From: a virus | Virus record (IMG/VR): IMGVR_UViG_3300012005_000021 | Coordinates: 532-40,562 of that record | Length of the DNA stretch: 40,031 bases | Reading direction: 5' to 3' (one strand) | Shown: positions 1-37,637 of the stretch, in pieces | How the letters are laid out: the number at the start of each line of letters is the position of its first letter | How positions within the stretch are numbered: position 1 is the stretch's first letter | Position numbers and translations under genes: made by a program | Notes under the pieces: model-generated | The model's database searches: none | What the model was told of the DNA's origin: nothing | The model's input: only the letters and a program-made list of their open reading frames with translations

Positions 1-233
1 ACGGCTGATGGAGTATCATAGTAGGTAAAGTTGACAGCATTGACTCGTTTAGGTGATATTGTTATATCTAACATCAGTACTTCATTACCATATATTTTAC
101 TATAGACTTTGTAGTGTCCGTCACGGATACGTCCCACATCTGTCCAGTCACCTTTAGCGTTAGAGTGACGATAAGGCGTTAAAGTTTCTATTGCTTTAGC
201 CACCTGATTATAATTGTCTGCTCTCTTAGCCAT
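1..233 (-). CDS. Small hypothetical protein, N-terminal part (crosses the genome junction)
   Basis: ATG at 233 opens a frame of 77 codons that runs off the left edge without a stop. It begins MAKRADNYNQVAKAIETL. The two bases left over at the edge (GT) join the A at position 40031 to make GTA, and the frame then continues as 22 more codons to a TAG at 39962. The joined protein is 100 residues. No family is recognised. The upstream gene on the minus strand ends at 245, so this gene is part of the leftward chain of small early genes. Confidence 0.75.
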   Translation of the reverse strand, partial: MAKRADNYNQVAKAIETLTPYRHSNAKGDWTDVGRIRDGHYKVYSKIYGNEVLMLDITISPKRVNAVNFTYYDTPSA

Positions 234-244
234 ACTAATTCCCT

Positions 245-475
245 TTAATACGGAAAATCCGTAGTGTCAATCAAATAATGTCTTACTGTCTTAAAATCAT
301 GACTTACCCACCTTACATCTGGCACAGAAACGAAAACTCTAGTGTTGGGGATATGCTCAACTTCTATACCTCTTTCAATACTACAATGTTCTTTACAGTC
401 TCCACAAACTCCCTCGTTACCTGTACTACTAGGGTTTATAACGGAAGCGCTACAGCAGTTGCTCATTTCATTCAT
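245..475 (-). CDS. Small cysteine-rich protein, probable zinc binder
   Basis: A 76-residue protein with an N-terminal cysteine cluster: a CC pair near residue 7 and then CGDCKEHC near residues 24-31. The spacing CxxCxxxC/H suggests a zinc knuckle. The same CxxCxEHCS pattern occurs in the protein at 629-907, so the two may be diverged relatives or share a metal-binding piece. The start ATG overlaps the TGA of the gene upstream (ATGA at 475-472), which supports this start. No catalytic motif is visible and the function is unknown. Confidence 0.65.
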   Translation of the reverse strand: MNEMSNCCSASVINPSSTGNEGVCGDCKEHCSIERGIEVEHIPNTRVFVSVPDVRWVSHDFKTVRHYLIDTTDFPY

Positions 476-636
476 GATAATCTTCTCTGTAGTTCAGCCT
501 CTAATGCTAGTAACCTGTTGAGTTTCATGCCCTCGCCATCAGTCATTTTGCTTAGTATGTGAATAAGCTCGCTATAGATTAAGTCATATTCTGTTTCTAA
601 TTGTGTCCGTGTTTTGTACATCAATGCTTCAGACAT
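472..636 (-). CDS. Small helical hypothetical protein (54 aa)
   Basis: ATG at 636 opens a 54-residue frame starting MSEALMYKTRTQLETEYD, rich in Leu, Glu and Arg and likely all-helical with coiled-coil character. GGACGGACAG precedes the start, and the ATG overlaps the end of the upstream gene (TGA at 631-629). Its own TGA overlaps the next ATG (ATGA). Double coupling to its neighbours makes it a credible gene despite its size. Function unknown. Confidence 0.6.
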   Translation of the reverse strand: MSEALMYKTRTQLETEYDLIYSELIHILSKMTDGEGMKLNRLLALEAELQRRLS

Positions 637-907
637 TCTGTCCGTCCTCTCGTAGACCTTGGCGTATCTCGTCAGCCTTTTCTTGGCGGTTTTCAGCTTC
701 CTCTTGCTCTAGTCCCTCATTAAGACAATCAAGGCTACAGAATGTACGCCCATCGTCTTGGTACTCACTGTATAAGCTACAGTGTTCGTTACAATTCCAG
801 CACTTATTCGTAGCTTCAGAAAACTCCCGCTCTCTCGTCATATTCTCTACTTGGTCATAGGGTAGTTCATACTCACTTGCTTGGTCTGATGAATAACTAT
901 CGAACAT
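629..907 (-). CDS. Zinc-ribbon-like small acidic protein
   Basis: A 92-residue acidic protein. Residues about 36-60 hold two pairs of cysteines: CWNCNEHC and then FCSLDC about 17 residues on. This is the layout of a treble-clef or zinc-ribbon finger, as in small DNA- or protein-binding phage proteins. The C-terminal third is Glu/Gln/Arg-rich and probably a coiled coil. The start at 907 overlaps the TAA of the upstream gene (TAATG). It shares the CxxCxEHCS motif with the protein at 245-475. The binding partner is unknown. Confidence 0.65.
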   Translation of the reverse strand: MFDSYSSDQASEYELPYDQVENMTREREFSEATNKCWNCNEHCSLYSEYQDDGRTFCSLDCLNEGLEQEEAENRQEKADEIRQGLREDGQNV

Positions 908-1089
908 TATTTTGTACCCCTTACCGCTTCCATAGCGATAGCCTCGGCCATGCCCTGCATATCGCTGTTAGTCAGTCCATCATCAACCCAGGTCGTGTCA
1001 TAATATAGATTGACTAACTCGATAATCTTGGCTGCTATAACCATTATGCGTTTTTGTTCGTTAGTCATAGTTATCTTTAAAGTTTTCAT
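907..1089 (-). CDS. Small hypothetical protein (60 aa)
   Basis: A 60-residue mixed-charge protein beginning MKTLKITMTNEQKRIM, with a predicted helical middle. AAGAGGACGAA precedes the ATG, a fair ribosome binding site. The ATG overlaps the TGA of the small ORF upstream. A second in-frame ATG at residue 8 is possible but has no better ribosome site. No family recognised. It belongs to the chain of tightly coupled leftward genes. Confidence 0.55.
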   Translation of the reverse strand: MKTLKITMTNEQKRIMVIAAKIIELVNLYYDTTWVDDGLTNSDMQGMAEAIAMEAVRGTK

Positions 1090-1166
1090 TTCGTCCTCTT
1101 TTCTTGAATAGATAAGCGTGTGAGTTCTACTTGTAGCCAGTCCTTTAATAGTTTATAAGCTCTCAT
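1086..1166 (-). CDS. Very small ORF (26 aa)
   Basis: ATG at 1166 overlaps the TGA of the membrane peptide upstream, and its own TGA (1088-1086) overlaps the next ATG at 1089. It encodes MRAYKLLKDWLQVELTRL and a basic tail. The amphipathic, basic sequence and the two-sided ATGA coupling favour a real micro-gene, but its length alone cannot prove that. Function unknown. Confidence 0.4.
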   Translation of the reverse strand: MRAYKLLKDWLQVELTRLSIQEKRTK

Positions 1167-1291
1167 ATAACCCTCGTATGGTTCTCTATCCATAAGATAT
1201 TATTAGTCCATACCATACATAATACGATAGCTATAATGATTAGTAATATTAAAAACCAGTGTTTCTTTGCTAGTAGTTTATATCTATACAT
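1163..1291 (-). CDS. Small single-pass membrane protein (42 aa)
   Basis: ATG at 1291 opens a 42-residue frame: a basic N-terminus (MYRYKLLAKKH), a hydrophobic stretch of about 18 residues (WFLILLIIIAIVLCMVW), then a short polar tail. AGAGGGG lies about 7 bases before the ATG. It starts just after the upstream gene stops (1293) and ends in an ATGA overlap. It would sit in the host inner membrane with the basic end inside. Role unknown: membrane peptides of this kind in early phage regions often modulate the host or block superinfection. Confidence 0.6.
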   Translation of the reverse strand: MYRYKLLAKKHWFLILLIIIAIVLCMVWTNNILWIENHTRVI

Positions 1292-1292
1292 T

Positions 1293-1523
1293 CTATAACC
1301 CCTCTGCAAATTTGATAATCTTATTGTTGTGCTTCACTATGTAGTTAAATAGATAGTTAGGAATAACTGCGCCACTCCATGTACGCTCTATTGTAATGCT
1401 ATTGTCATCTTCTTTATAGAATAGACATATATCATAATTCAAAGCGTCTAGTATACGCTTAGCTATCTTAGTGTCTTGTAGTTCTAAATATTCCCATACT
1501 TTAGCATTTATATTTTTAGTCAT
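1293..1523 (-). CDS. Small hypothetical protein (76 aa)
   Basis: I place the start at ATG 1523 (MTKNINAKVWEYLEL) because GGAG lies 9 bases upstream. The longer frame would need a TTG start at 1538 without a ribosome site. The start overlaps the end of the upstream gene (stop 1518-1516). The protein has an N-terminal helical half and a beta-rich end (SITIERTW, then IVKHNNKIIKF). No family recognised. Confidence 0.55.
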   Translation of the reverse strand: MTKNINAKVWEYLELQDTKIAKRILDALNYDICLFYKEDDNSITIERTWSGAVIPNYLFNYIVKHNNKIIKFAEGL

Positions 1524-1707
1524 CTTCATCTTCTCCAAACTCTGGTACTCCTGCCCATTCTAACAATACTACATCGCCTGGTTCGATATACTCTACAAGT
1601 GATTGTAGTTCAAAAATCTCGTCATAACTAATACGCTCTGCTTCAATTTCGCCCCTTAAATATTCTAGGCGCGTCTTAGCTTGTTTGCTGGTCATAGGTG
1701 TTGTCAT
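1516..1707 (-). CDS. Small acidic hypothetical protein (63 aa)
   Basis: A 63-residue acidic protein beginning MTTPMTSKQAKTRLEYLR and ending in GEDEDD. The first 40 residues look helical. A central VVLLEWAGVPEF segment is the only hydrophobic part. It lies directly after the gene ending at 1709 and overlaps the start of the next one. Acidic small early proteins of phages can be protein mimics or inhibitors, but nothing here shows that. Function unknown. Confidence 0.5.
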   Translation of the reverse strand: MTTPMTSKQAKTRLEYLRGEIEAERISYDEIFELQSLVEYIEPGDVVLLEWAGVPEFGEDEDD

Positions 1708-1708
1708 A

Positions 1709-1930
1709 TTAATTCCTAACTGACAGTTCTAACTCTGCCTCTTTTTTATTACTAAACCATTTAGCAAAATCGTGAGTATCACCAAGTCTAGGTGATTGAA
1801 AAACTACATAGCCATTACTTCTAGGCGTATCAATCATTGAGCCATTGCCTAGTGTCGTAACCATTGTATAGCTTTTATGTAGTAGCATTAAATTATTATA
1901 TCGTCTTACCTGTAATAATCTTGTTGGCAT
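1709..1930 (-). CDS. Small hypothetical protein (73 aa)
   Basis: A 73-residue basic protein (MPTRLLQVRRYNNLMLLHKS at the start). The middle looks beta-rich and the C-terminus (FAKWFSNKKEAELELS) amphipathic. The ATG at 1930 follows the upstream micro-gene stop (1936-1934) by three bases, with GGGG of that gene's end as a possible ribosome site. No family recognised. Confidence 0.5.
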   Translation of the reverse strand: MPTRLLQVRRYNNLMLLHKSYTMVTTLGNGSMIDTPRSNGYVVFQSPRLGDTHDFAKWFSNKKEAELELSVRN

Positions 1931-1933
1931 AAT

Positions 1934-2068
1934 TTACCCCGCTATAATCCAAAACTCTATATCTAACAAGACAAACAGTGATAGAAATAATACTAATTCT
2001 ATACCACGTTTTGCTATATTAGCAAGGGTTCGTTTATTTTGCTTATGATTTATATGATTTTGGTACAT
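1934..2068 (-). CDS. Small single-pass membrane protein (44 aa)
   Basis: ATG at 2068 gives a 44-residue protein: a polar, basic N-terminal half with several Asn/Gln/Lys, then about 20 hydrophobic residues (LVLFLSLFVLLDIEFWIIAG) at the very C-terminus. GGAACAC lies about 8 bases upstream. This is the layout of a tail-anchored membrane peptide. It is the first gene after an A-rich, hairpin-bearing stretch (2070-2324) and so may be the first gene of a processed or separately started message. Role unknown. Confidence 0.55.
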   Translation of the reverse strand: MYQNHINHKQNKRTLANIAKRGIELVLFLSLFVLLDIEFWIIAG

Positions 2069-2096
2069 TTTTTGTGTTCCTTTTTTTTGTTAAGGT

Positions 2097-2159
2097 GGTA
2101 AGGACAGACGGACAGACAAGGCGTTAATGATTATTATATCCTTCGTCGCTGTCCTTACC
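2097..2159. repeat. 11-bp inverted repeat with nested GGACAGAC copies
   Basis: GGTAAGGACAG at 2097-2107 is perfectly complementary to CTGTCCTTACC at 2149-2159, with 41 bases between. GGACAGAC is repeated at 2102-2109 and 2110-2117, inside and beside the left arm. On the minus strand the structure is followed by an A-rich run, not by Us, so it is not an ordinary terminator of the leftward unit. It could be an operator, an mRNA stability hairpin or a processing site. Confidence 0.55.
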
Positions 2160-2304
2160 TGTATTAATAATAGCACACTTGATAATAAATTACAACCCTA
2201 TTTTTTATAATTATCTTTTATAAAAGCAAAAACCCCTACTAATTCCCTTGTATAAGCATAAGAATAACACCACTTTATTGTGGTGCTAATCTTGCCTATA
2301 AGAA

Positions 2305-2323
2305 AACGCCCTTGTGAGGCGTT
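2305..2323. terminator. Small bidirectional terminator-like hairpin
   Basis: AACGCC (2305-2310), a 7-base loop and GGCGTT (2318-2323) form a 6-bp stem. On the minus strand it is followed by TTCTTATA, on the plus strand by AGTCTTTTA. The stop codon of the 46-residue gene (2324-2322) lies in the stem, so the hairpin closes that gene. A second 6-bp hairpin (CACCAC, TTTATT, GTGGTG) lies just downstream near 2268-2285. The remaining bases between 2160 and 2265 are AT-rich with no gene seen. Confidence 0.45.
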
Positions 2324-2462
2324 AGTCTTTTATGATGTAGATGCCGTTAGCCTTGCAATAGTCCTTGTATAGCTTGAGTGCCTCGCTACTCGTGTAGTAC
2401 AGATATTGTCTAGTCAATAGCCACGTATCCGCACCGTCTGTTACTAGTTTTGATATTTTCAT
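2322..2462 (-). CDS. Small hypothetical protein (46 aa)
   Basis: ATG at 2462 encodes MKISKLVTDGADTWLLTRQY and continues to 46 residues, ending GIYIIKD. GAGGCG lies 8 bases before the start. The ATG overlaps the TGA of the small ORF upstream. The sequence has a coherent composition (aromatics, mixed charge) expected of a small folded protein. Function unknown. Confidence 0.55.
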   Translation of the reverse strand: MKISKLVTDGADTWLLTRQYLYYTSSEALKLYKDYCKANGIYIIKD

Positions 2463-2557
2463 AATATCGCCTCATCATCACGTGTTCTTATAATTGCCCA
2501 TATTGTCTGATAGTATATAGTCCCTATGACTATCCTAAATAGTCTATATGTTTTCAT
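2459..2557 (-). CDS. Very small ORF (32 aa)
   Basis: ATG at 2557 encodes a 32-residue basic peptide with a hydrophobic middle (MKTYRLFRIVIGTIYYQTIW), possibly membrane-associated. GGGGTATAAC precedes the start. Its TGA overlaps the next ATG (2462), the ATGA coupling seen throughout this region. Function unknown. Confidence 0.45.
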   Translation of the reverse strand: MKTYRLFRIVIGTIYYQTIWAIIRTRDDEAIL

Positions 2558-2584
2558 GTTATACCCCTTATGATTAGTTTTTAT

Positions 2585-2620
2585 GGTGTTAGTAACACCG
2601 CAAGGGGCTATTTCTAGCCC
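2585..2620. other. Two consecutive 6-bp hairpins between genes
   Basis: GGTGTT-AGT-AACACC (2585-2599) and GGGCTA-TTTC-TAGCCC (2605-2620) are perfect 6-bp stems in the short space between the gene ending at 2633 and the one starting at 2557. Neither is followed by a U-run on either strand. They may protect the 3' end of the 2633-2950 message or mark an RNase site. Confidence 0.4.
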
Positions 2621-2632
2621 TATGCGCTAATA

Positions 2633-2950
2633 CTAAAGACTATCGACGTATTTAAACGTAATAGTTGGTAGTCCGTCGTATTCATCGCCATTTTTAGCAG
2701 TTTTTAGCCACTTTTTAATAGCTACTAAGTCATACTCTAGGCCATATTCTTTTAGCCACTGGTTAAAATATCGGCTAGTGGTTACCGAGTAGTCATAATC
2801 ACTGCTAATTGTAAACATTGCGCCCTCTTTTTTAGCGATAGTTGTATTATAGCTTTGAAAGTATTCTACTCCATCGCTAAATATAGTAAACTGATTCTTT
2901 ACCGCCTCGCCGCTTCTCGGACTTATTAGATTCTTTACTGTTGTACTCAT
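2633..2950 (-). CDS. Conserved phage protein of unknown function (SPRSG...NQF...FQSY domain)
   Basis: A 105-residue protein. The order of motifs (SPRSGEAVKNQF near residue 10, then FQSYNTTIA near 32-40, then SDYDYSVTTSRYFNQWL near 49-67) resembles a small domain I have met in many phage and plasmid early regions, written generally as NQF, FQSYxxxIA, DYSxTTxxY. Its biochemical role is not established. Translation starts at ATG 2950 with AAGGGGTAACGAT before it. The only gene upstream in this unit is the 24-residue ORF at 3064-3138, so it is probably transcribed from the promoter at 3174-3202. Confidence 0.6.
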   Translation of the reverse strand: MSTTVKNLISPRSGEAVKNQFTIFSDGVEYFQSYNTTIAKKEGAMFTISSDYDYSVTTSRYFNQWLKEYGLEYDLVAIKKWLKTAKNGDEYDGLPTITFKYVDSL

Positions 2951-3063
2951 ATCGTTACCCCTTTTGTTTATGATAAAGCTATTGCTTTATCTGTTACTAG
3001 TATAAGCGCTTTATGCTACTTATGCTAGTCTTGTTTTTTATTTTCTTTATATTCTAATAAGCG

Positions 3064-3138
3064 TTAGCGTATAGTTGCAAACTTGATGCGGCCAGGCTCT
3101 GTATAATCACGTATAGAGATTATCTTGCTTTTATTCAT
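3064..3138 (-). CDS. Very small ORF (24 aa) behind a strong promoter
   Basis: ATG at 3138 follows AAAAAGGATAAAT, a good ribosome binding site, and encodes MNKSKIISIRDYTEPGRIKF and four more residues. It is the first frame downstream of the promoter at 3174-3202, about 30 bases from the expected start of transcription. It could be a leader peptide or a true basic micro-protein. Function unknown. Confidence 0.45.
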   Translation of the reverse strand: MNKSKIISIRDYTEPGRIKFATIR

Positions 3139-3173
3139 ATTTATCCTTTTTATGTTATTTTGATTGTATCTAC

Positions 3174-3202
3174 ATTATAGCACAAGCGGGATAATAAGTC
3201 AA
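3174..3202 (-). promoter_or_regulatory. Consensus sigma70 promoter (leftward)
   Basis: Read on the minus strand: TTGACT (3202-3197), a 17-base spacer that ends in TGC, then TATAAT (3179-3174). The TGC before the -10 box makes it an extended -10 promoter. It should start transcription near 3167 and serve the micro-gene at 3138 and the gene at 2950. It is the best -10 match in the leftward region. Confidence 0.8.
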
Positions 3203-3385
3203 GTATAAGCATATTTATTGTACGCTTGGCATAACCTATAAAAGATACTTTTAATAGTAGCAGGTCTATGTAGCTTGTCTTAATAAGCATATAAGACTTA
3301 TAGTCTATTGATACTATCTATACTATGACGTGGTTTAACTTGTCTAACACCTCACCTAACCCCTTACGCTAACCCCTTAATACTG

Positions 3386-3462
3386 TATTTTACGACATAA
3401 GATATAATACAAAAGACGGGTTACAAGTCAACTATTAGCTAATTGCTTAATGTCGTAAAATA
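3386..3462. repeat. 13-bp perfect inverted repeat around a promoter
   Basis: TATTTTACGACAT at 3386-3398 and its exact complement ATGTCGTAAAATA at 3450-3462 are separated by 51 bases. The space between them holds a leftward promoter-like sequence (3404-3431). Two identical, oppositely oriented sites about six helical turns apart around a promoter is the classic layout of a looping operator. It lies in a 840-base AT-rich region (2951-3792) with one 24-residue gene and no other gene of note. Confidence 0.6.
3404..3431 (-). promoter_or_regulatory. Possible leftward promoter inside the inverted repeat
   Basis: On the minus strand TTGACT (3431-3426), a 16-base spacer and TATTAT (3409-3404). The spacer is one short of the other promoters in this genome, or 18 if TTATAT is taken as the -10. 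Its position between the two 13-base arms (3386-3398 and 3450-3462) suggests it is the regulated element. Confidence 0.4.
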
Positions 3463-3697
3463 TCATAGCACTACTACTAACAGGGGTAGCACAATAACAG
3501 TATATGATTATATGTTATAATATGTATAAGTACTAACAGATATCAAGTGTCGATAATCACGGGTTTTTATAATCGTGCTATATAGTCTATAGACAAGCTG
3601 TCAAATATGTGGTCATATATTAATACCCCTATAGCACCCGATTGTCATTCTACAGCGGGCTACGGGGTGATAATCTGTCTAACATAGTGTGGGTGTA

Positions 3698-3791
3698 CAA
3701 AAAAATATTCTAACACTTCATGTGCCCAAAAAAATATTGTCTAACACTTCATTTATCTACCAAAAAATATTGGGCTATATACCAAAAAAAA
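3698..3791. repeat. A-tract direct repeats (CAAAAAAATATT and CTAACACTTCAT)
   Basis: CAAAAAAATATT occurs at 3698-3709 and 3727-3738, a near copy at 3761-3771, and a further A8 tract at 3783-3791. The first two copies are followed by CTAACACTTCAT (3710-3721 and 3741-3752). Related TGTCTAACAC or TCTAACA sequences lie at 3341-3350 and near 3676. Spacing of the A tracts is about 29, 34 and 22 bases. Such phased A tracts bend DNA and are common in replication origins and in promoter upstream regions. Confidence 0.5.
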
Positions 3792-3792
3792 T

Positions 3793-4044
3793 TTAAATAC
3801 TTAGTATCTTAACAAAGTTAACACAGTTATTCTCTACTTCAATCTGACAAGGATGATTATTTAGATTTTTAAGCTCATATATAGCAGCGTCTTTTATAGC
3901 CTTTCCCATCTCTTTAATTGATAGAACAATTAATGCTCCACCCATTAGGTCTGCCCCAAAAGATACGCTAAACCAAAAAGCTGGACTACCCATATCTCTC
4001 ATGCCGTATTTTGGCTCTGTCATTATAGCTAGTTCTTTACTCAT
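3793..4044 (-). CDS. Small hypothetical protein (83 aa)
   Basis: An 83-residue protein. Residues about 20-45 include a moderately hydrophobic stretch (AFWFSVSFGADLMGGALIVL) and the C-terminal third has two cysteines. There is no good ribosome site before ATG 4044 (TTGACAACCT), so coupling to the upstream gene ending at 4057 is likely. The gene is followed by the A-tract control region. Function unknown. Confidence 0.5.
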   Translation of the reverse strand: MSKELAIMTEPKYGMRDMGSPAFWFSVSFGADLMGGALIVLSIKEMGKAIKDAAIYELKNLNNHPCQIEVENNCVNFVKILSI

Positions 4045-4056
4045 AGGTTGTCAAGT

Positions 4057-4251
4057 TTATTTCTTTGGTACAAATAATTTAATTGACTTTTTTAGTTCGT
4101 CTACATTATCCCATAGTATGTTAAGTATACTATGTCCCTTAACTTGCTGGTGGCATCCATAACCATCAGTATCTACTGAATAGATTAGTCCTAGTTCATT
4201 TTCTAATGATTCGATTCTTACTGCTAGTTTACGTTTAAATATTTTCATACT
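4057..4251 (-). CDS. Small hypothetical protein (64 aa)
   Basis: I place the start at ATG 4251 (MKIFKRKLAVRIESLENELG) because AAAGGATAGT lies directly before it. The frame is open to an ATG at 4275 but that one has no ribosome site. Basic N-terminus, then a likely coiled-coil helix, then a basic end (FVPKK). Function unknown. Confidence 0.55.
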   Translation of the reverse strand, partial: SMKIFKRKLAVRIESLENELGLIYSVDTDGYGCHQQVKGHSILNILWDNVDELKKSIKLFVPKK

Positions 4252-4299
4252 ATCCTTTCTTATATTTATAAACAAAGAAGAGTGGGCGAGATTATTGCA

Positions 4300-4476
4300 T
4301 TACTCGCAAGTTAGGTGTTGATTACAATAGTAATTTCCTTCTATCAGTTTATTGCCCCTTCGGACCGTCATCCTGTGCTTTAACCCATCAACAAGGGGTT
4401 TATTCAGCCACCACTCATCTTTATTTGTAAATGTACTCGGTGTAGTAAGGCGGGCTAGTATAGCGAATCTTGCCAT
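4300..4476 (-). CDS. Small hypothetical protein (58 aa)
   Basis: The open frame reaches ATG 4515, but that codon lies upstream of the -10 box of the promoter at 4506-4534, so it cannot be on that transcript. ATG 4476 (MARFAILARLTTPSTFTN) is the next start and lies about 23 bases after the expected transcription start. The protein is basic with two cysteines at the C-terminus (YYCNQHLTCE). No family recognised. Confidence 0.45.
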   Translation of the reverse strand: MARFAILARLTTPSTFTNKDEWWLNKPLVDGLKHRMTVRRGNKLIEGNYYCNQHLTCE

Positions 4477-4505
4477 CCCTAATGCATCAACCTTACTACA
4501 TATTA

Positions 4506-4534
4506 ATACTATCACGGATTGATTACAAAGTCAA
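4506..4534 (-). promoter_or_regulatory. Sigma70-type promoter (leftward)
   Basis: On the minus strand TTGACT (4534-4529), a 17-base spacer and TAGTAT (4511-4506). This repeats the arrangement at 5201-5229, 32547-32575 and 37609-37637. Transcription should begin near 4499 and would serve the genes from 4476 leftward. Confidence 0.7.
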
Positions 4535-4558
4535 CCCCTTTTTTAACAGAGTTATCCA

Positions 4559-4759
4559 CTAAAAGATATTATTAAGGTGTTTTGCAATTCTCATATCAGT
4601 AATATATCTGGCAGTTTCTAATGTCATACCATTTTTTTCTCCAATTTTTCTACCCATCTTATCTAATTTTACTTTAGTAGGTTTATACTTACCCTTATAG
4701 GTAGGCTCTATCTTCTTAACTATCTTTACTGGTCCATTCTTATCTTCTATTCTACTCAT
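4559..4759 (-). CDS. Small basic hypothetical protein (66 aa), first gene of the leftward unit
   Basis: AAAAGGAGCACC lies before the paired ATGs at 4762 and 4759. The frame is open further to 4792, but that start has no ribosome site. The protein begins MSRIEDKNGPVKIVKK and is rich in Lys, with IVKKIEPTYKGKYKPTKVKL in the middle and a helical end. Its charge suggests nucleic-acid binding. It is the first gene after the leftward promoter at 5201-5229 and its long leader, a position often held by an early regulator. Confidence 0.55.
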   Translation of the reverse strand: MSRIEDKNGPVKIVKKIEPTYKGKYKPTKVKLDKMGRKIGEKNGMTLETARYITDMRIAKHLNNIF

Positions 4760-4774
4760 CATGGTGCTCCTTTT

Positions 4775-4807
4775 AATTGCTTCGCAATTCATTTCGGGCT
4801 ACCGCCC
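4775..4807 (-). other. Two small hairpins just upstream of the first leftward gene
   Basis: AATTGC-TTC-GCAATT (4775-4789) and GGGC-TACC-GCCC (4796-4807) fold in the leader immediately before the AAAAGGAG ribosome site of the 4759 gene. They may set access to that site. The first one has a 6-bp perfect stem. Confidence 0.4.
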
Positions 4808-4810
4808 TCA

Positions 4811-4819
4811 TGCTAGATT
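4811..4819 (+). promoter_or_regulatory. Weak extended -10 candidate for the structured RNA
   Basis: TGC followed by TAGATT on the plus strand resembles the TGC-TAGTAT extended -10 boxes of the phage promoters. No good -35 is present 17 bases upstream. If used, transcription would start near 4826, just ahead of the structured RNA at 4851-5165. This is the only candidate I see for that RNA. Confidence 0.2.
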
Positions 4820-4850
4820 TATATCAACTTCCAAGATTATCGGTTTTTTG

Positions 4851-5165
4851 ATACAGCCTCCCCTCCCTCCAACAGATTGACCTCTGTTAGTTGAAGGGGG
4901 TCTGTATTGAACGAATAATCAACATTCCTGAGTTATTCGGATTCTTCAACAGTCGGCACTATCCCCTGGGTCATGTGCCGAAACAGCAACGTGTAACTCC
5001 ATACTGTCCAAGACCATTTCTGCCCTTATCAGTAGTCGATAGGAGAGTTACGTAGGCTTTTGCATGCCTCTACGCGTCTGTCCCTTGCATAAAAGAATGA
5101 TTGCTGTCATGATACATACATAACGAAGCTTTCAAAGGAGTCCCAAACGGGGCTTCTTTCTTTTA
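4851..5165 (+). ncRNA. Structured non-coding RNA between the divergent gene units
   Basis: No gene fits here. The stretch folds as a series of stems: ATACAG/CTGTAT (4851-4856 with 4902-4907) enclosing AACAGA/TCTGTT (4871-4876 with 4883-4888); CGAATAA/TTATTCG (4912-4918 with 4933-4939); TCGGCAC/GTGCCGA (4953-4959 with 4975-4981); GTAACTC/GAGTTAC (4993-4999 with 5045-5051) enclosing TACTG/CAGTA (5002-5006 with 5030-5034); CGTAG/CTACG (5051-5055 with 5070-5074). It ends in a terminator at 5135-5165 that pairs fully only on the plus strand. It does not show the signature sequences of tmRNA, RNase P RNA, SRP RNA or 6S RNA that I know. On the minus strand the same DNA is the roughly 400-base leader of the leftward unit. 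Confidence 0.55.
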
Positions 5166-5191
5166 CTAGCTGATTGCTAACGAAGCTTTCA
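5121..5191. repeat. 14-bp direct repeat TAACGAAGCTTTCA
   Basis: TAACGAAGCTTTCA occurs exactly at 5121-5134 and 5178-5191, 57 bases apart start to start. The second copy covers about +3 to +16 of the transcript from the leftward promoter at 5201-5229. The first abuts the terminator stem. Each contains the palindrome AAGCTT. Two identical sites flanking a terminator next to a promoter look like operators. Confidence 0.55.
5135..5165 (+). terminator. Factor-independent terminator (plus strand)
   Basis: AAGGAGTCCC (5135-5144), loop AAAC, GGGGCTTCTT (5149-5158) make a 10-bp stem followed by TCTTTTA. Two of the pairs are G-U on the plus strand and would be A-C mismatches on the minus strand, so the element acts on plus-strand RNA. 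It ends the structured RNA that starts near 4851. Confidence 0.7.
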
Positions 5192-5200
5192 GCTGTATGA

Positions 5201-5229
5201 ATACTAGCATACCTTGTTTTAAAAGTCAA
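5201..5229 (-). promoter_or_regulatory. Main leftward promoter
   Basis: On the minus strand TTGACT (5229-5224), a 17-base spacer ending in TGC, then TAGTAT (5206-5201). Start of transcription should be near 5194. It drives the leftward early unit through a long structured leader to the first gene at 4759. A 14-base repeat (5178-5191) sits just downstream. I see no clear sigma70 promoter for the rightward unit between 5230 and 5300. Confidence 0.75.
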
Positions 5230-5300
5230 TAGACAGATTTTGCTAATGATAGTTGCAATATAAACGATAAGATGATAGGGTAATATGATAAGGAGTTATT

Positions 5301-5507
5301 ATGGCAATCAAGAAAACTGGTACATTCAAAGGAAAGAGTAATAAGTTAGGTGGCGGTGGGCGATTCGCTCAGGTAATTGCTAAGATGCCAAAGGGTATGC
5401 CACTAAAAGAAAAGAAAGCTATTGCTGCTATTCAAGGACGCAAGAAATATGGTGCTAAAAAAATGACAAGTATGGCTACGGCTGGAAAAAAGAGGGCAAA
5501 AAAGTGA
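5301..5507 (+). CDS. Small basic Lys/Gly-rich protein, first rightward gene
   Basis: A 68-residue protein with about one third Lys/Arg, a glycine run (GGGGRF near residues 18-23) and no acidic patches. ATAAGGAGTTATT gives a strong ribosome site. It overlaps the next gene by four bases (GTGA). Small basic proteins placed before the terminase may bind DNA or be packaged in the head. No family recognised and no HTH visible, so I do not call it a small terminase. Confidence 0.55.
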   Translation: MAIKKTGTFKGKSNKLGGGGRFAQVIAKMPKGMPLKEKKAIAAIQGRKKYGAKKMTSMATAGKKRAKK

Positions 5508-5764
5508 AGACAAATTCAAAAGATATGGCAGTGGCAATGGGTGTCTCAGATATGAAACCCATGTTGCATCTTAGTGATAAAGAACTGAAAAGTATTAACA
5601 GTTATAAGATTGACCAAGAAGTTACATTAGAAATTAAAGCCAAGGTATCTTCGATTAATAAGAGCCAATTTGACCAAGGTAAATTAAGTGTTGAGTTCAC
5701 TATTGAATCAGTAGAAGACGAAACAAGTACCGAAACGACAGAAGATACATCCGAAGGAGAATAG
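5504..5764 (+). CDS. Small acidic hypothetical protein ahead of terminase
   Basis: An 86-residue protein with a GTG start that overlaps the previous stop (GTGA). The middle is beta-rich (EVTLEIKAKVSSIN, then LSVEFTIESV), and the last 18 residues are Glu/Thr-rich and disordered. It ends directly before the terminase start. Its position would suit a small terminase subunit, but there is no recognisable DNA-binding fold. Function unknown. Confidence 0.5.
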   Translation: MKTNSKDMAVAMGVSDMKPMLHLSDKELKSINSYKIDQEVTLEIKAKVSSINKSQFDQGKLSVEFTIESVEDETSTETTEDTSEGE

Positions 5765-7336
5765 ATGGACCTAGACAGGGCTATAGAGCAAGCAGGGATA
5801 GTAGGGTTAGCTAAAGTAGCAGAGCGGTGTAAGACCGATTTGTTTTTTTTATGTAAGTTTGTTTTACATTACACACTACTGGAAGAGCACACTCATAGGG
5901 ATATCTGTGAGATTACAAAAACTGTTTTGCCAGGATTCAATCCAGAGAATAAGGTAAATTTTACACCTACTGTTAGATATGTTGGTGAAAAATTAGACAT
6001 AGTATTATCTGACCAATTCGACCCATATAGGAATAAACTTCTTATCTTAATGCCCAGGGGAACTTTTAAATCGAGCATCGTTACAGTTGGTCTGACTCTA
6101 CAATATATCTTAAACGACCCTGACGCTCGTATCTTAATAGATTCAGAGACCTACGGAAAGGCTAAGAACTTCTTAGCGGAAGTTAAAGGGCACCTAGAGG
6201 GAAACAAAGAGTTCAGGGCGGTATTCAAACATATCTATGGTAAATTCCCTGACTCTAATAAGAAAGATTCTTCAATTAGGTGGACGGATGCCGCAGTGGA
6301 TTTGTCTTGTAGGACTAAGATAACTAAAGAGTCATCTATCTCTTGTTCTGGTGTGGACCGTTCAATTAACGGTATGCACTTTGATTTAATCATAGAAGAT
6401 GACCTTCACTCAGAGAAGAACGTAACTAATAAAGAGCAAATCCAACAGGTTATAAATCATAGGCAGTTGGCTAACTCTCTGCTAGAACCTGGTCATCCTA
6501 AGGTCACTCTTGGTACGAGGTGGGATTTCCAAGATGCCTATAATGATATTCTAACAAGGCAGAGGTCATCGTATAATATTATGGTCAGGAAGGCCGTAGA
6601 AGATGATGGTTCATTATTCTTCCCCGAGAGATTGACCCAAAAGTTCTTAGACGAGCAGAGACGAGACCAGGGTGCTAGTATCTATTCGATGCAGTACCAA
6701 AATAATCCTATTGATGATGCCACTGCTACCTTTAAACATTCGTACTTCCAAAAGATTCAGTGGGACTTAGTAAAAGATAAACCTATTAACTGGTGCGTAG
6801 CGATTGACCCCAGTATGGAGGGTCCTTATTCAGACTACGCAGCCTTTGTCTTAGCAGGGTTAGATGCTGAGGGGAATTTATATGTTAGGAATATCCACCG
6901 CTCCAAAATGAATTATGCTGGGATTATAACTCTTATGTTTGACTGGAATCAAAGGTACTCTCCTAGACGGATAGCCCTAGAGACTATTGCAACTCAGAGC
7001 AATATAAGTTATATGTTAAATGCAGAACAAAAACAACGTGGTATCTGGCTTCCAGTCAAGGAAATCAAATCTCGTAGTAGTTCTAAAGAAGACCGTATTA
7101 GGTCTTTAGCCCCTTATTATGAGTATGGCAAAGTCTTCCATGTTGAAGAATGTAGCCAACTAGATGATTTGGAATATGAATTAACTCATTTTCCAAAAGG
7201 TGCAAACGATGACATAATAGATGCTTTGGCAACTATCCTAGAAATCGCCACTCCACCGTCTAGAAATAAACGTCATAACGATAGCGAAAAGAAACGAACA
7301 TCATTTAAACCACGTAGTTTGGTAACAGGAATCTAA
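5765..7336 (+). CDS. terL: Terminase large subunit
   Basis: A 523-residue protein, the normal size for the packaging motor. The N-terminal ATPase has a Walker A loop PRGTFKS at residues 97-103, a Walker B DLIIEDD at 207-213 and a coupling motif TLGTRWD at 248-254. The C-terminal RNase H-like nuclease has an AIDPS motif with Asp348, an ALE motif with Glu405 and NDDIIDA at 481-487. It cuts concatemeric or circular DNA and pumps it into the prohead through the portal encoded next door. Its stop overlaps the portal start (ATCTAATGG). Certain from motifs and context; the packaging type (pac or cos) cannot be told. Confidence 0.95.
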   Translation: MDLDRAIEQAGIVGLAKVAERCKTDLFFLCKFVLHYTLLEEHTHRDICEITKTVLPGFNPENKVNFTPTVRYVGEKLDIVLSDQFDPYRNKLLILMPRGTFKSSIVTVGLTLQYILNDPDARILIDSETYGKAKNFLAEVKGHLEGNKEFRAVFKHIYGKFPDSNKKDSSIRWTDAAVDLSCRTKITKESSISCSGVDRSINGMHFDLIIEDDLHSEKNVTNKEQIQQVINHRQLANSLLEPGHPKVTLGTRWDFQDAYNDILTRQRSSYNIMVRKAVEDDGSLFFPERLTQKFLDEQRRDQGASIYSMQYQNNPIDDATATFKHSYFQKIQWDLVKDKPINWCVAIDPSMEGPYSDYAAFVLAGLDAEGNLYVRNIHRSKMNYAGIITLMFDWNQRYSPRRIALETIATQSNISYMLNAEQKQRGIWLPVKEIKSRSSSKEDRIRSLAPYYEYGKVFHVEECSQLDDLEYELTHFPKGANDDIIDALATILEIATPPSRNKRHNDSEKKRTSFKPRSLVTGI

Positions 7337-9396
7337 TGGATAAATACAACCCAAATAAAGCAGACCGAGAAGCCCGACGTAGAATCTTTGAGAGATTCCA
7401 AACAATGCGTGATGACCCGATTCGTAGAGAAGAGGAAAAATTCTGGGAAGATGGTAACAAGGCTTATATGCAATGGATGCCAAACCGAGAAGAAGGTGAC
7501 TGGCGCTCCCACCTAGTCTTACCAGATGCTTTTGCTGCTATCCAATCAAGTGCTCAGGAAGTTATTGAACGACGTAGCCGACCTAATCTAGAATCGGTTG
7601 AATCATCTGATTTAGCCAAAGAACAATTCTGTAACGATGTTCTGAAACACTCAATGGACCGTACTGGTTATGATTTTGAAACTTATCAGGCTAAAAACTG
7701 TGCTGCTATTAGGGGTACTTCTTTCGTTAGGGAGAGATACCGTTACGAGAAGAGGATGGTCCAAGACCCAGACTCTCTAGACAAAGATGGGAATATTGTT
7801 TATAAGAAACGAGAAATCGTAGACTATGACGATACTGTAACTGAGTTTGTTGAAAACTCAATGAATTATGTTGACCCAGGTGCTAGGAAAATGGAGAATG
7901 CCAGGGATGATATTGAACGTGAAATCTTAGATATTAAGACATTTAAATTACGATATGGCAAAAAACCAGGCTTTATGAACGCAAATCTGGTTAAAGCTGC
8001 TGGACAACTTAATAATTCTTTCCAATTTTTCAAACAAGCAGTAGATGTTACCAATGATGAAGTAGAAATCCTCCACTATACCAATAAGGAAACCGATTCT
8101 TATGACGTATTGGCTAATAATGTTCTTATTAGGCGAGGACCGATTCCCTTCAAGCATAAAGAACTTAATATTTCTGTCTATAGACACTATATGGTCCCTG
8201 GACGTATTTATGGTATGGGTATACCTAGAGTTATATTCTCATTATCTGAGGAACGAGCTAGTCTTCGACGCTTACGCCTAGATGACAAGAATCTAAATAG
8301 TAATAAGGTGTTCTTGGCTAATGACTTAGTTGATATAGATGAGGAAGACTTGCGAAGTCGTCCTAATGGACTTGTTCAGGTAAATACTAATGGTATGAGC
8401 CTCGACCAAGTTATTAAAGAGCTTAACTTTAGTAACACTGACCCATCTTCTTACAAAGAAGAGGAAATGCTCCTAGAAGATATCCGAAGAGCCCATGGTA
8501 TTTCTGATAATAATCAGAATGTTCCAACAGGTTCAACCGCTACCGAAGCCGCTATAATGAAAGAGATGGCTCAAAAGAGAATTACTCTTATTGCTATTCA
8601 GGCTGAGATGGATAACATCATCCGACAAGGAAGATTGAAGTGGAGCAATATTCAATTCTTCTATCCTGCCGCTAGAGTTGTTAGATTAACTGCCGATAGC
8701 GAAGCTCTTGGTAAAAAAGTATATCGAACAATAAAAGTACAGGGTCGTCAATACTCTGTTAAGGAAGAGAATGGTGGTTATTCACTAGATTCTACTGAGA
8801 TTGAGGGTAATAGCGGATTTGTCTTAGACCCTAAGATGGCTAAGTTCATGGAAGGCGACTTTGATGTTACGATGTCAGCTTCACCAGCCCCTATCCTATC
8901 TAAGCCCCTTCAACAGGCTAAGATTACAGAGATGTTCGGATTGATTGCCTTGAATCCATTACTGGCTAATACTATTGATGCCAACAAAGCCGTCCAAAGA
9001 TACCTAAAGGTTAATGATGAAGACCCTAAGGACTGGATGCGTGGTAAAGGTCTTACTGACGACCAGTGGGCTCGTCTTGCAATTCAGGAAAATAATGTTA
9101 TGGCTACTGGAATACCTCTCGTACCTACTGACGGTGCTACAGAAGCTCATACGTTGGAACATCTCCACTTTACTAATACTCCCGCCTTCCTCGCATTGCC
9201 TCAACCAGTTCAAGCCAATGTTGGTGCTCACATTATGGGTGAACACTCGTCTCGTGGTGGTGCAATGCCAACTCCAGGACCGCAAGGGGGCCCAGGTTCT
9301 AATACTCCACCGCAAGCACAAGCGGTTGACATTCAACCGTCTACCCCTGCTGGCGCTGAGGCTCAAAATGCTCAACTAGACCAAACTAGAGCCTGA
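7336..9396 (+). CDS. Portal protein (podovirus type)
   Basis: A 686-residue protein directly after terminase, overlapping it by one base. Length, position and the pattern near residues 390-420 (VPTGSTATEAAIMKEM, then a basic helix) match large podovirus portals of the P22 type, which form the dodecameric channel for DNA entry and tail attachment. The N-terminal half is rich in charged residues and aromatic repeats (wing and clip). The last 60 residues are Pro/Gln/Gly-rich and probably flexible. Followed after 41 bases by a small gene. Confidence 0.85.
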   Translation: MDKYNPNKADREARRRIFERFQTMRDDPIRREEEKFWEDGNKAYMQWMPNREEGDWRSHLVLPDAFAAIQSSAQEVIERRSRPNLESVESSDLAKEQFCNDVLKHSMDRTGYDFETYQAKNCAAIRGTSFVRERYRYEKRMVQDPDSLDKDGNIVYKKREIVDYDDTVTEFVENSMNYVDPGARKMENARDDIEREILDIKTFKLRYGKKPGFMNANLVKAAGQLNNSFQFFKQAVDVTNDEVEILHYTNKETDSYDVLANNVLIRRGPIPFKHKELNISVYRHYMVPGRIYGMGIPRVIFSLSEERASLRRLRLDDKNLNSNKVFLANDLVDIDEEDLRSRPNGLVQVNTNGMSLDQVIKELNFSNTDPSSYKEEEMLLEDIRRAHGISDNNQNVPTGSTATEAAIMKEMAQKRITLIAIQAEMDNIIRQGRLKWSNIQFFYPAARVVRLTADSEALGKKVYRTIKVQGRQYSVKEENGGYSLDSTEIEGNSGFVLDPKMAKFMEGDFDVTMSASPAPILSKPLQQAKITEMFGLIALNPLLANTIDANKAVQRYLKVNDEDPKDWMRGKGLTDDQWARLAIQENNVMATGIPLVPTDGATEAHTLEHLHFTNTPAFLALPQPVQANVGAHIMGEHSSRGGAMPTPGPQGGPGSNTPPQAQAVDIQPSTPAGAEAQNAQLDQTRA

Positions 9397-27921: not shown

Positions 27922-27950
27922 TTGACTTATTAAACAAAGTATGCTAGGTT
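27922..27950 (+). promoter_or_regulatory. Promoter placed for a leaderless ATG start
   Basis: TTGACT (27922-27927), a 17-base spacer ending in TGC and TAGGTT (27945-27950). ATG of the next gene is at 27958, seven bases after the -10 box, so transcription should start at or one base before the start codon. No ribosome site precedes the ATG. It would give lysis-module genes their own promoter. Confidence 0.65.
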
Positions 27951-30961: not shown

Positions 30962-31233
30962 AGGCGAGCCATGTTGAAGCAGCCTGTTCCAATGGACACA
31001 CGGAGATAATTTATGTGACCTCGCAGAGTTTTCTCCGAATCCTGGCAGAAGCTCATCTTAGTGTAGCCTTCGGGCTGATACCGACCGATGAGCGCAAGGC
31101 AGCTTGCGACGCCACTTGGGATGCTCTGTCGCCCAAGGACGATGAGGTTGAAGAGCCGAAGGAACCCGACCCGCCTCACTGGATGTTGCGGGAACTGTTT
31201 GACGACCTACGTAACTACGAGGGGAGTAACTAA
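30877..31233 (+). CDS. Hypothetical protein in a GC-rich island (118 aa)
   Basis: Start at ATG 30877 (MRENCDTCSTDYDITPDN); a GTG at 30868 would add three residues. It carries a CDTC pair at the start and ACSNGH near residue 37, so one small zinc site is possible. Residues 85-115 are acidic and Pro-rich. Base composition jumps to about 55% G+C here against about 40% around it, and codon choice differs (CTC, CTG, GCC common), which suggests recent transfer. It overlaps the upstream gene by about 85 bases. Confidence 0.55.
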   Translation: MRENCDTCSTDYDITPDNAHLVLFLDYLKASHVEAACSNGHTEIIYVTSQSFLRILAEAHLSVAFGLIPTDERKAACDATWDALSPKDDEVEEPKEPDPPHWMLRELFDDLRNYEGSN

Positions 31234-31343
31234 TGCTCCGCAACATCAAAGCCCTCTATGAGGTTGCTTTAGATGAACTGTGGGCCTTACTGACTCACCT
31301 CGTGATGAATCAAGGAAAGGATAACAATGCGACACATGATTAA
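31233..31343 (+). CDS. Very small ORF (36 aa)
   Basis: ATG at 31233 overlaps the previous TAA (TAATG) and GAGGGGAGTAA is a good ribosome site. It encodes MLRNIKALYEVALDELWALL and a polar end. GC-rich like its neighbours. Helical; function unknown. Confidence 0.45.
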   Translation: MLRNIKALYEVALDELWALLTHLVMNQGKDNNATHD

Positions 31344-31500
31344 CGGTCAGTCGTGCAACCTGCGCCAACTGACCGAACGTGAGCTATCACAGCTCATTAC
31401 TAACCATGAGATGAGGATTGCCCTCATCAATGACGAACTCAGCTCCCTCAAGGGTGAGCAGATTCGTCGGCAACCAATCGTTACTCAGACTCTCTTCTAA
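31327..31500 (+). CDS. Small hypothetical protein (57 aa), last rightward gene
   Basis: ATG at 31327 behind GGAAAGGATAACA. The 57 residues (MRHMINGQSCNLRQLTEREL at the start) look helical with a likely coiled coil and end QTLF. It overlaps the previous ORF by 17 bases. GC-rich codon use like its neighbours. Immediately followed by a long perfect hairpin. Function unknown. Confidence 0.5.
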   Translation: MRHMINGQSCNLRQLTERELSQLITNHEMRIALINDELSSLKGEQIRRQPIVTQTLF

Positions 31501-31505
31501 AATAT

Positions 31506-31546
31506 ACCAGTAGGTTACGGATTCAACCGAAACGTAACCTACTGGT
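31506..31546. terminator. Perfect 14-bp hairpin at the meeting point of the two gene units
   Basis: ACCAGTAGGTTACG (31506-31519) and its exact complement CGTAACCTACTGGT (31533-31546) around a 13-base loop. It lies six bases after the last rightward gene and is the strongest simple stem in the genome. There is no U-run on either strand, so it may be a bidirectional transcription barrier, an RNase III substrate or a protein site. Bases 31547-31678 hold nothing I can recognise. Confidence 0.65.
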
Positions 31547-31678
31547 TGAAAGGTAGGTGGAAACATCTCGATGCGCCCCACATCGTTAAAAAGGGGTGTT
31601 TTACCTTGTGTGAGATTATTATTACCATTTCAAGTATTATTCTACCGTCTATTGTATTCAATTATGAAATAAATTCTA

Positions 31679-31759
31679 TGGTGGAGGTGGGCTGACTCGA
31701 ACAGCCGTCTTCATGGTGTCCGTAAACGGCTTTACCACAAATCTAACCAATACACCCCC
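31679..31759 (-). tRNA. tRNA-like gene 1, CCA encoded, no canonical anticodon loop
   Basis: On the minus strand GGGGGTG (31759-31753) pairs with CACCTCC (31689-31683), then A and an encoded CCA. The T arm is perfect: GGCTG, loop TTCGAGT, CAGCC. A D-loop-like TTGGTTAGA follows TA at positions 8-9, but its stem is weak. The expected 5-bp, 7-base anticodon arm cannot be formed. The best fit is GTGGT/ACCAT around a 16-base loop that contains CCG-TTTA-CGG. Length 81. No amino acid can be assigned. It could be an intron-bearing or altered tRNA, or a tRNA mimic. Confidence 0.6.
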
Positions 31760-31763
31760 ACAA

Positions 31764-31844
31764 AACCAGGCGTAGGAGTTGAACCTACATCTTACTACTA
31801 CACACGTTGATATAGCAGCTGTTCTAACGTTAAACTAGCCTGGT
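31764..31844 (-). tRNA. tRNA-like gene 2, enlarged anticodon loop
   Basis: On the minus strand ACCAGGC (31844-31838) pairs perfectly with GCCTGGT, followed by T and no encoded CCA. D arm GTTT, loop AACGTTA, GAAC and T arm GTAGG, loop TTCAACT, CCTAC are all sound. Between them 32 bases remain instead of about 22. The best anticodon stem is GCTGC/GTAGT around a 13-base loop, or CTGCTA/TAGTAG around 12. U33 is not in place, so no anticodon can be named. It lies four bases from tRNA-like gene 1 and abuts the hairpin region at 31845. Confidence 0.6.
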
Positions 31845-36832: not shown

Positions 36833-37046
36833 GATTAGCTCCTAATGAAGTTCTTAAATCCCTTGCTTTTTTATTATTACGTTGGTTTGGTTCTTTCTTT
36901 CTAGATTGAGCTCTATTTACTGGTGTCATCTTTCCACCCACTTGTTTGATATGCTTTCCCAGTACGGTTACAAAGTTTGGTTTAGGTCGTTTGCTACCTA
37001 TATTGTTCGGCTTGTTTTTCCAATATTCTTCTCGACTAAACTTCAT
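36825..37046 (-). CDS. Small strongly basic protein (73 aa)
   Basis: A 73-residue protein, about one third Lys/Arg/Asn, with no predicted globular core (KKEPNQRNNKKARDLRTS near the end). ATGAGGAGGGCAGAAT gives an excellent ribosome site. Likely binds nucleic acid. It overlaps the end of the GIY-YIG gene. Confidence 0.5.
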   Translation of the reverse strand: MKFSREEYWKNKPNNIGSKRPKPNFVTVLGKHIKQVGGKMTPVNRAQSRKKEPNQRNNKKARDLRTSLGANRE

Positions 37047-37602
37047 ATTCTGCCCTCCTCATGGCTCGTGACATATTTCTTTTGGCAATAGTCTCATCAG
37101 ACTGCGTTTTACCTATATGAGATATTCTTAAATTATATTTGTGTGCATCAGTCATTGCGCCCTTTTTAGTACCTGATAATGACTGACTAATTTTTAACTT
37201 AGTAGAACTACTCATCCTTACGCCTTTGCCGTTTCCCTGGTTAGATATACTAAGTTTAAGTTTATGCTCGTCCGAGAACTTTATTCCACGCATCGGAGCT
37301 TTAGTGTCCATAGTTAGGTTAAGGCCATTATTATATGAGTCGTACTGTTCAATATATTCCCTTTCTTTGTCTAGCAAGTCCTTTATGTCACATAGTTCTA
37401 TAACATCAAACTGTAAATCACCAGAACCGTATTTATTATATATAGACTGTAAATGTTTGTTGCGATGGGATTGGTCTTTTAGTTTCCATAAATGATTTCC
37501 AAAACGACTATGTAAATTGACTGATGAGCCAATATATATATTCCCATCATGCAAGCTAGTTATTTTGTAAATACCACAATTTTTATATAATGATTTATCC
37601 AT
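37036..37602 (-). CDS. GIY-YIG homing endonuclease
   Basis: A 188-residue protein. Residues 10-95 are the GIY-YIG nuclease domain: GIY at 10-12, YIG at 23-25, the catalytic-type Arg33 and a later Glu (KEREYIEQYDSYNNGLNLT). The remainder holds three NUMOD-like DNA-binding repeats (FSDEHKLKLSISNQG, SSSTKLKISQSLSG, MTDAHKYNLRISHIG). Free-standing homing enzymes of this type cut intron- or gene-less relatives and spread by repair. It has its own leaderless-type promoter, fitting an inserted mobile gene. Confidence 0.85.
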   Translation of the reverse strand: MDKSLYKNCGIYKITSLHDGNIYIGSSVNLHSRFGNHLWKLKDQSHRNKHLQSIYNKYGSGDLQFDVIELCDIKDLLDKEREYIEQYDSYNNGLNLTMDTKAPMRGIKFSDEHKLKLSISNQGNGKGVRMSSSTKLKISQSLSGTKKGAMTDAHKYNLRISHIGKTQSDETIAKRNMSRAMRRAEYEV

Positions 37603-37608
37603 ATGTCT

Positions 37609-37637
37609 ATACTAGCACAGTCAACATCAAAAGTCAA
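37609..37637 (-). promoter_or_regulatory. Promoter placed for a leaderless ATG start
   Basis: On the minus strand TTGACT (37637-37632), a 17-base spacer ending in TGC, TAGTAT (37614-37609), six bases (AGACAT), then ATG at 37602. The geometry is identical to that at 32547-32575. No ribosome site. Confidence 0.75.

Follow-up and report, generated by a model that had tools for sequence, protein, structure and literature searches.

A predicted structured leftward leader and an opposing terminator in the gap between the leftward and late genes of a phage

The window, that is, the whole stretch of 40,031 nucleotides that was analysed, comprises bases 532-40562 of the 40,562-base IMG/VR virus record IMGVR_UViG_3300012005_000021. 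Its late genes run rightward from position 5301 and encode a small basic protein, a terminase, a P22-like portal and a capsid, while the genes outside this late block point leftward. Between the start of a leftward gene at 4762 and that of a rightward gene at 5301 lies a gap in which no supported gene was found, as an earlier note on this DNA had already stated. A BLASTN search with the gap as query matched nothing among phages and plasmids, a scan of it for tRNA and tmRNA found none, and the comparison with Rfam proposed in that note returned no family for the gap, either at the gathering cut-off or at permissive thresholds. The features of the region are the following.

4559..4762, minus strand: first gene after the leader, an open reading frame for a 67-aa lysine-rich protein
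4757..4783, minus strand: ribosome-binding site (RBS) and start of gene 4559-4762, predicted from the fold to be sequestered
4763..5194, minus strand: structured 5′ leader of about 430 nt, from the predicted fold compared with shuffles
5085..5113, plus strand: position of a degenerate opposing promoter, TTGCATA-N13-TGTCATGAT, 9/15 and not above background in the window
5121..5134: second copy of the direct repeat, TAACGAAGCTTTCA, where the opposing RNA would start
5125..5149, minus strand: anti-Shine-Dalgarno segment (helices 5149-5143, 5140-5134 and 5129-5125), from duplex energy and pair probabilities
5134..5164, plus strand: intrinsic terminator opposing the leader, AAAGGAGUCCC-AAAC-GGGGCUUCUUU-CUUUU
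5168..5194, minus strand: 5′ hairpin H1 (AGCUGA...UCAGCU), which contains repeat copy 1; pair probability 0.97
5178..5191: first copy of the direct repeat (copy 1), where the leader would start
5201..5229, minus strand: main early promoter, TTGACTT-N13-TGCTAGTAT, a perfect match to the pattern; inferred start near 5194
4563..5242: block inverted relative to two related contigs (L001 and L002), from an in silico flip

Close relatives are few. They were sought with the large terminase, the small protein, the portal, gene 4559 and the promoter patterns in viral_contigs, and with the large terminase in genome_contigs; L001/L085 and L002 share the start of the late operon, with terminases 93-96% identical, and among the relatives found the gap is present only in L001 and L002. 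Sequenced phages are far more distant by terminase, the best among the matches listed being below 30% identity. The small protein near the terminase (5301-5507, plus strand), a basic protein of 68 aa with the motifs LGGGGRFA and KKYGAKKM, matches no PHROG, yet viral contigs contain 114 relatives of it, amid widely differing genes; the other loci found through it have surroundings that differ from those of the window. For the product of gene 4559-4762, searches for a family and for relatives found none, and its single-sequence structural model, of low confidence (pLDDT 64), is a weak two-helix arrangement with a helical C-terminal half.

Elsewhere in the window, a tRNA gene at 31764-31844 on the minus strand (Rfam tRNA, 45 bits, E 3e-8), whose anticodon arm includes an unusually long stretch, was missed by ARAGORN and by the fast Rfam scan. 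Adjoining it, at 31680-31762 on the same strand, a second tRNA-like sequence can be recognised by eye, with the T-arm GGCTG-TTCGAGT-CAGCC and the acceptor TGGGGGTG/CACCTCCA, which neither ARAGORN nor Rfam reported.

The early promoters of this phage follow the pattern TTGACTT-N13-TGNTAGTAT. Four perfect examples occur in the window, all of them on the minus strand (at 37637, 32575, 5229 and 4534), and 11 sites match with up to three mismatches where 2.6 are expected. The promoter at 5229-5201 is directed into the gap, and its sequence is kept in L001/L002 with flipped orientation. Downstream of its inferred start near 5194, no minus-strand terminator was found before gene 4559-4762, which is preceded by a strong Shine-Dalgarno sequence. 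At a distant place, 27922-27950 on the plus strand, an early-type promoter with two mismatches immediately precedes the small genes that lead up to the endolysin gene.

The earlier note had described the gap as a structured plus-strand RNA. The region is indeed structured, but the assignment of the stems to a plus-strand RNA was not confirmed: against shuffled sequences, positions 4851-5165 score z -2.5 on the plus and -3.9 on the minus strand, and positions 4761-5196 score -3.6 and -5.8, respectively. The minus-strand RNA from 5194 to 4733 has a minimum free energy of -147.1 kcal/mol, compared with -117.1 +/- 5.9 kcal/mol in shuffles, none of which (0/100) does as well, and it contains 96 pairs with probability above 0.9 against 35 +/- 18, a count again reached by 0/100 shuffles. 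The plus strand has no such excess (32 pairs against 30 +/- 15, with 19/40 shuffles reaching 32), and no plus-strand promoter above chance was found near 4851, in a scan of positions 1-8000 that gave 31 promoter-like sites where shuffles predict 29. Of 180 tiles of 316 nt sampled across the entire window, only one outranks the minus strand of 4795-5110, a signal that is unusual rather than unique. We conclude that, in these predictions, the folded RNA of the gap is the minus-strand leader and not a plus-strand RNA. The strongest local fold signal of the window lies at another site, at the end of the late operon (31200-31550, plus strand), with z about -6.4 over 200 nt, and includes the hairpin CCAGTAGGTTACG...CGTAACCTACTGG.

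On the minus strand, the prediction is a multibranched domain whose strong hairpins include those at 4939-4912 (11 bp), 4899-4860 (7 + 8 bp) and 4981-4953 (7 bp). Five long-range helices between 5149-5083 and 4817-4757 form a zipper that closes the domain. Within this zipper, the motif AAAGGAG of the RBS (4773-4767) pairs with CUCCUUU at 5140-5134 with a mean probability of 0.89, and GCUUC at 5129-5125 makes a second contact with GAAGC at 4783-4779. The pair probability of the RBS stays at about 0.89 whichever transcript end was tried and at temperatures between 20 and 45 C. The duplex between leader and RBS, at -23.2 kcal/mol, is equalled by 1/500 shuffled leaders; moreover, among 2,666 tiles of 60 nt taken from both strands of the whole window, the tile with segment 5149-5125 is the top partner of the RBS, its own complement excepted. 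This pairing was noticed only after inspection of the fold. On these computations, the leader appears to hide the RBS of gene 4559-4762.

On the opposite strand, the same anti-Shine-Dalgarno segment is overlain by the intrinsic terminator at 5134-5164, inside the leader of the 5229 promoter. Its hairpin (5134-5159) has 11 bp, two of them G-U, and a loop AAAC followed by CUUUU, and complete pairing is possible on the plus strand alone, just as had been noted earlier; the reading of a plus-strand terminator that stops short of the late operon and lies antisense to the leftward leader also stands, and the hairpin is kept in the two relatives. On the strand opposite the promoter, the window and its relatives give hairpins of -15.4, -12.6 and -11.9 kcal/mol, which are weaker on the promoter strand (-7.6, -10.4 and -2.7 kcal/mol). 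L001 and L002 differ at 8 positions of the hairpin, between adjoining 60-nt blocks that are identical or almost so, and only 73/5000 random sets of 8 substitutions leave it as stable.

Upstream of this terminator, a site that opposes the main promoter matches the early pattern at 14/15 in L001/L085 and L002, at the place equivalent to the degenerate site of the window. In L001/L002 it lies about 25 nt before the terminator, so that the RNA would measure about 45-50 nt; this near-perfect promoter of the relatives makes a short antisense RNA, of about 45 nt, more likely than one of 300 nt. The proposal of a 300-nt RNA is not supported, with the structure in the minus-strand leader and the promoter, where recognisable, this close. 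The idea that an antisense RNA regulates the early leader can be retained with modifications. Conservation of the unit is partial: homology with L001/L002 extends over the promoter and the first 120 nt or so (z 5.9-8.3), and the remainder is at z about 0. A 5′ hairpin is also possible in the leaders of the relatives at the place of H1, with another sequence.

These observations can be joined in a model in which the gap is a regulated minus-strand 5′ leader, with the RBS of gene 4559 masked and a short plus-strand RNA that unmasks it, to which we assign a probability of about 0.45. The first step, supported by the sequence, would be transcription from the strong early promoter at 5229-5201, giving a leftward transcript that starts near 5194. 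In the second, which is computed, the leader of about 430 nt would fold into the multibranched domain with both its ends zipped together, 5149-5125 (CUCCUUU...GCUUC) pairing with the RBS of gene 4559-4762 (GAAGC...AAAGGAG). Since the leader segment is predicted to pair with the RBS, we propose that translation of this gene is off by default. In the third step, a plus-strand RNA would run to the terminator at 5134-5164, with a length of about 45 nt if it began just past the weak opposing promoter, whose -10 ends near 5113. The plus strand of the covered part, CGAAGC-UUUC-AAAGGAG, resembles the RBS region itself, CGAAGC-AAUUA-AAAGGAG, so an RNA ending at the terminator would be expected to compete with the RBS for the leader segment: carrying the RBS-like CGAAGCUUUCAAAGGAG, it would occupy the anti-Shine-Dalgarno segment and open the RBS. 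When the part of the leader covered by the antisense is made unavailable in the computation, the mean unpaired probability of the RBS core rises from 0.22 to 0.82. Production of the antisense RNA, its shortness and an unmasking of the RBS that spares the leader are all inferences, and the same duplex could alternatively lead to degradation or attenuation of the leader. The degenerate state of the opposing promoter in the window (9/15) counts against the unmasking model, as does the outcome of searches for homologues of gene 4559 and of the distal leader, which found none.

That alternative is the core of a second explanation, a repressive antisense unit in which the short plus-strand RNA pairs with the first 75 nt or so of the leader and causes its decay or premature termination, as lambda OOP does with the cII mRNA, the pairing of the RBS being incidental. 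The relatives speak for it, as they keep the opposing promoter and terminator and yet have no significant pairing of the RBS: the leaders of L001/L002 do not fold above shuffles and their anti-Shine-Dalgarno match, 9 bp of AACUCCUUA/UAAGGAGUU, gives duplex energies that are not significant (p 0.12 and 0.21). Sequestration is therefore not conserved in the cassette, which also weighs against the unmasking model. The specificity loops of antisense RNAs are variable in sequence, and the hairpin varies here between otherwise identical neighbours. In addition, the well-known phage cis-antisense RNAs listed in two reviews all repress (PMC12197685, PMC5415839). Against this stands the position of the antisense in the window, exactly on the anti-Shine-Dalgarno segment that, the RBS complement aside, is the best partner of the RBS in the window, and on balance we regard a repressive unit as unlikely, albeit a serious contender.

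The inferred starts of both RNAs in the window are marked by the two copies of a perfect 14-nt direct repeat, of which no further copies above chance occur in the window. L001/L002 carry a different repeat, TCCAGATT, at the matching positions (spacing 57/55/56), and copies that change together in this manner fit one factor or one RNA that reads both. One could accordingly take the region for a promoter-operator, with the repeats as operators of a phage repressor acting on both facing promoters and the hairpin and terminator merely curbing read-through. Repeats at the same places in window and relatives would suit such operators, as would copy 1 of L001, AATCTCCAGATT, palindromic but for its centre; on the other hand, the other early promoters lack the repeat, the protein scans made revealed no gene recognisable as a repressor and the minus-strand fold would be left unexplained, all of which makes this reading improbable in our view.

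The cassette of L001/L002 faces the late operon, and that of the window faces away from it. When positions 4563-5242 are flipped in silico, two separate matches to L001 become one colinear match of 183 nt (E 2e-26). A site-specific inversion was considered and rejected, as the ends of the block have no inverted repeat longer than 7 nt, and the flip is explained by an inversion of some age or by an error of assembly. In the latter case, the real genome would have the block oriented as in L001/L002, with the leader and gene 4559 at the head of the late operon; this is compatible with the other explanations, since the logic of leader and antisense inside the block would be the same and only the operon served would change, to the late one. 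The colinearity regained with L001 and the lack, in the window as drawn, of a consensus promoter facing the late operon argue for an assembly error, but a genuine inversion between relatives is equally possible, and beyond the block, at 5253-5281, there is a candidate late promoter (TTGCAA...TAGGGT) that is conserved though weak; we hold such an error to be conceivable, if somewhat unlikely.

The orientation of the block bears as well on the tie to the late operon that the earlier note had seen, and weakens it: the cassette of the relatives has the reverse orientation, and its terminator has turned together with its promoter. As the orientation of the terminator follows the promoter of the cassette and not the late operon, we argue that it serves the cassette rather than the shielding of the late genes. 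The position of the terminator directly before the late operon in the window would suit a plain insulator that only stops stray plus-strand transcription, but in L001/L002 it points away from that operon with its orientation to the cassette promoter maintained, and the window has no plus-strand gene upstream of it, so we consider pure insulation very improbable.

We give still less credence to the cassette being a portable, invertible RNA-primed replication origin under antisense control, where the folded transcript would enter a G-rich run and could stay hybridised to the DNA until the RNase H of the phage cuts it. Such a run exists at 4870-4857 on the minus strand, the sole one of its density in the window and about 325 nt after the start, and in the flipped relatives a G-rich run occurs about 336 nt after the start (L001 4451-4460, plus strand), the intervening leaders being non-homologous to that of the window. 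The phage encodes an RNase H-like protein, and the cumulative GC-skew has its minimum in the 4-5 kb bin, a minimum that gene direction alone accounts for. Adjoining the RNase H-like gene, in the leftward block, is a GIY-YIG homing endonuclease with a NUMOD3 motif (37036-37602, minus strand).

Among known systems, the RNAIII-hla and DsrA-rpoS pairs are examples of leaders that mask their own RBS, with a small RNA that binds the masking strand (anti-antisense). A self-masked RBS, predicted in the window, and another RNA that would bind the masking strand are what the window has in common with these pairs, whereas the unmasking RNA of the window would be encoded in cis, by the DNA strand complementary to the masking segment. 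Type I toxin-antitoxin modules, such as tisB/istR-1 and hok/sok, combine a small ORF, a structured leader, a masked RBS and an overlapping antisense RNA, and the window likewise has a small ORF, preceded by a structured leader in which the RBS is predicted to be masked, with a putative antisense RNA overlapping the leader. The product of gene 4559, lysine-rich and soluble-looking with its 67 aa, is not a small hydrophobic peptide, and this assignment was rejected. With the countertranscript control of plasmids (RNA I/RNA II of ColE1; pT181/pIP501; PMC5415839) the window would share a long structured transcript whose 5′ part faces a short antisense RNA, but the cassette has no recognised replication protein or primer function, and the Rfam family ctRNA_p42d touches only the terminator with an E of 7.6, far below the cut-off. 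The cassette is thus not filed as a member of an Rfam family, a type I toxin-antitoxin or a ColE1-type primer system.

Lambda OOP and aQ, as well as P22 sar, are phage cis-antisense RNAs (PMC12197685, PMC5415839). The likeness would lie in a short RNA that is complementary to a regulatory mRNA of the phage, with a promoter facing this target and an intrinsic terminator at its end. In our case, a terminator on the antisense strand and an overlap with the 5′ part of the target transcript are present; the candidate facing promoter matches at 14/15 in L001/L085 and L002 and at a degenerate 9/15 in the window. The target differs from those of OOP, aQ and sar, being the 5′ end of a long folded leader, and while these RNAs repress or destabilise, the putative antisense of the window would cover the anti-Shine-Dalgarno segment and could activate. 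The cassette would thus resemble OOP, sar and aQ in its working, possibly with the opposite sign of action.

With the strand corrected, a hunt for a 300-nt plus-strand regulatory RNA at this locus would probably be futile. The unit of promoter and antisense retains its internal layout while being oppositely oriented in close relatives. If the unmasking model is true, one short stretch of DNA would serve as an anti-Shine-Dalgarno on one strand and as a terminator and RBS mimic on the other, and a tiny antisense RNA would turn a phage gene on, not off.
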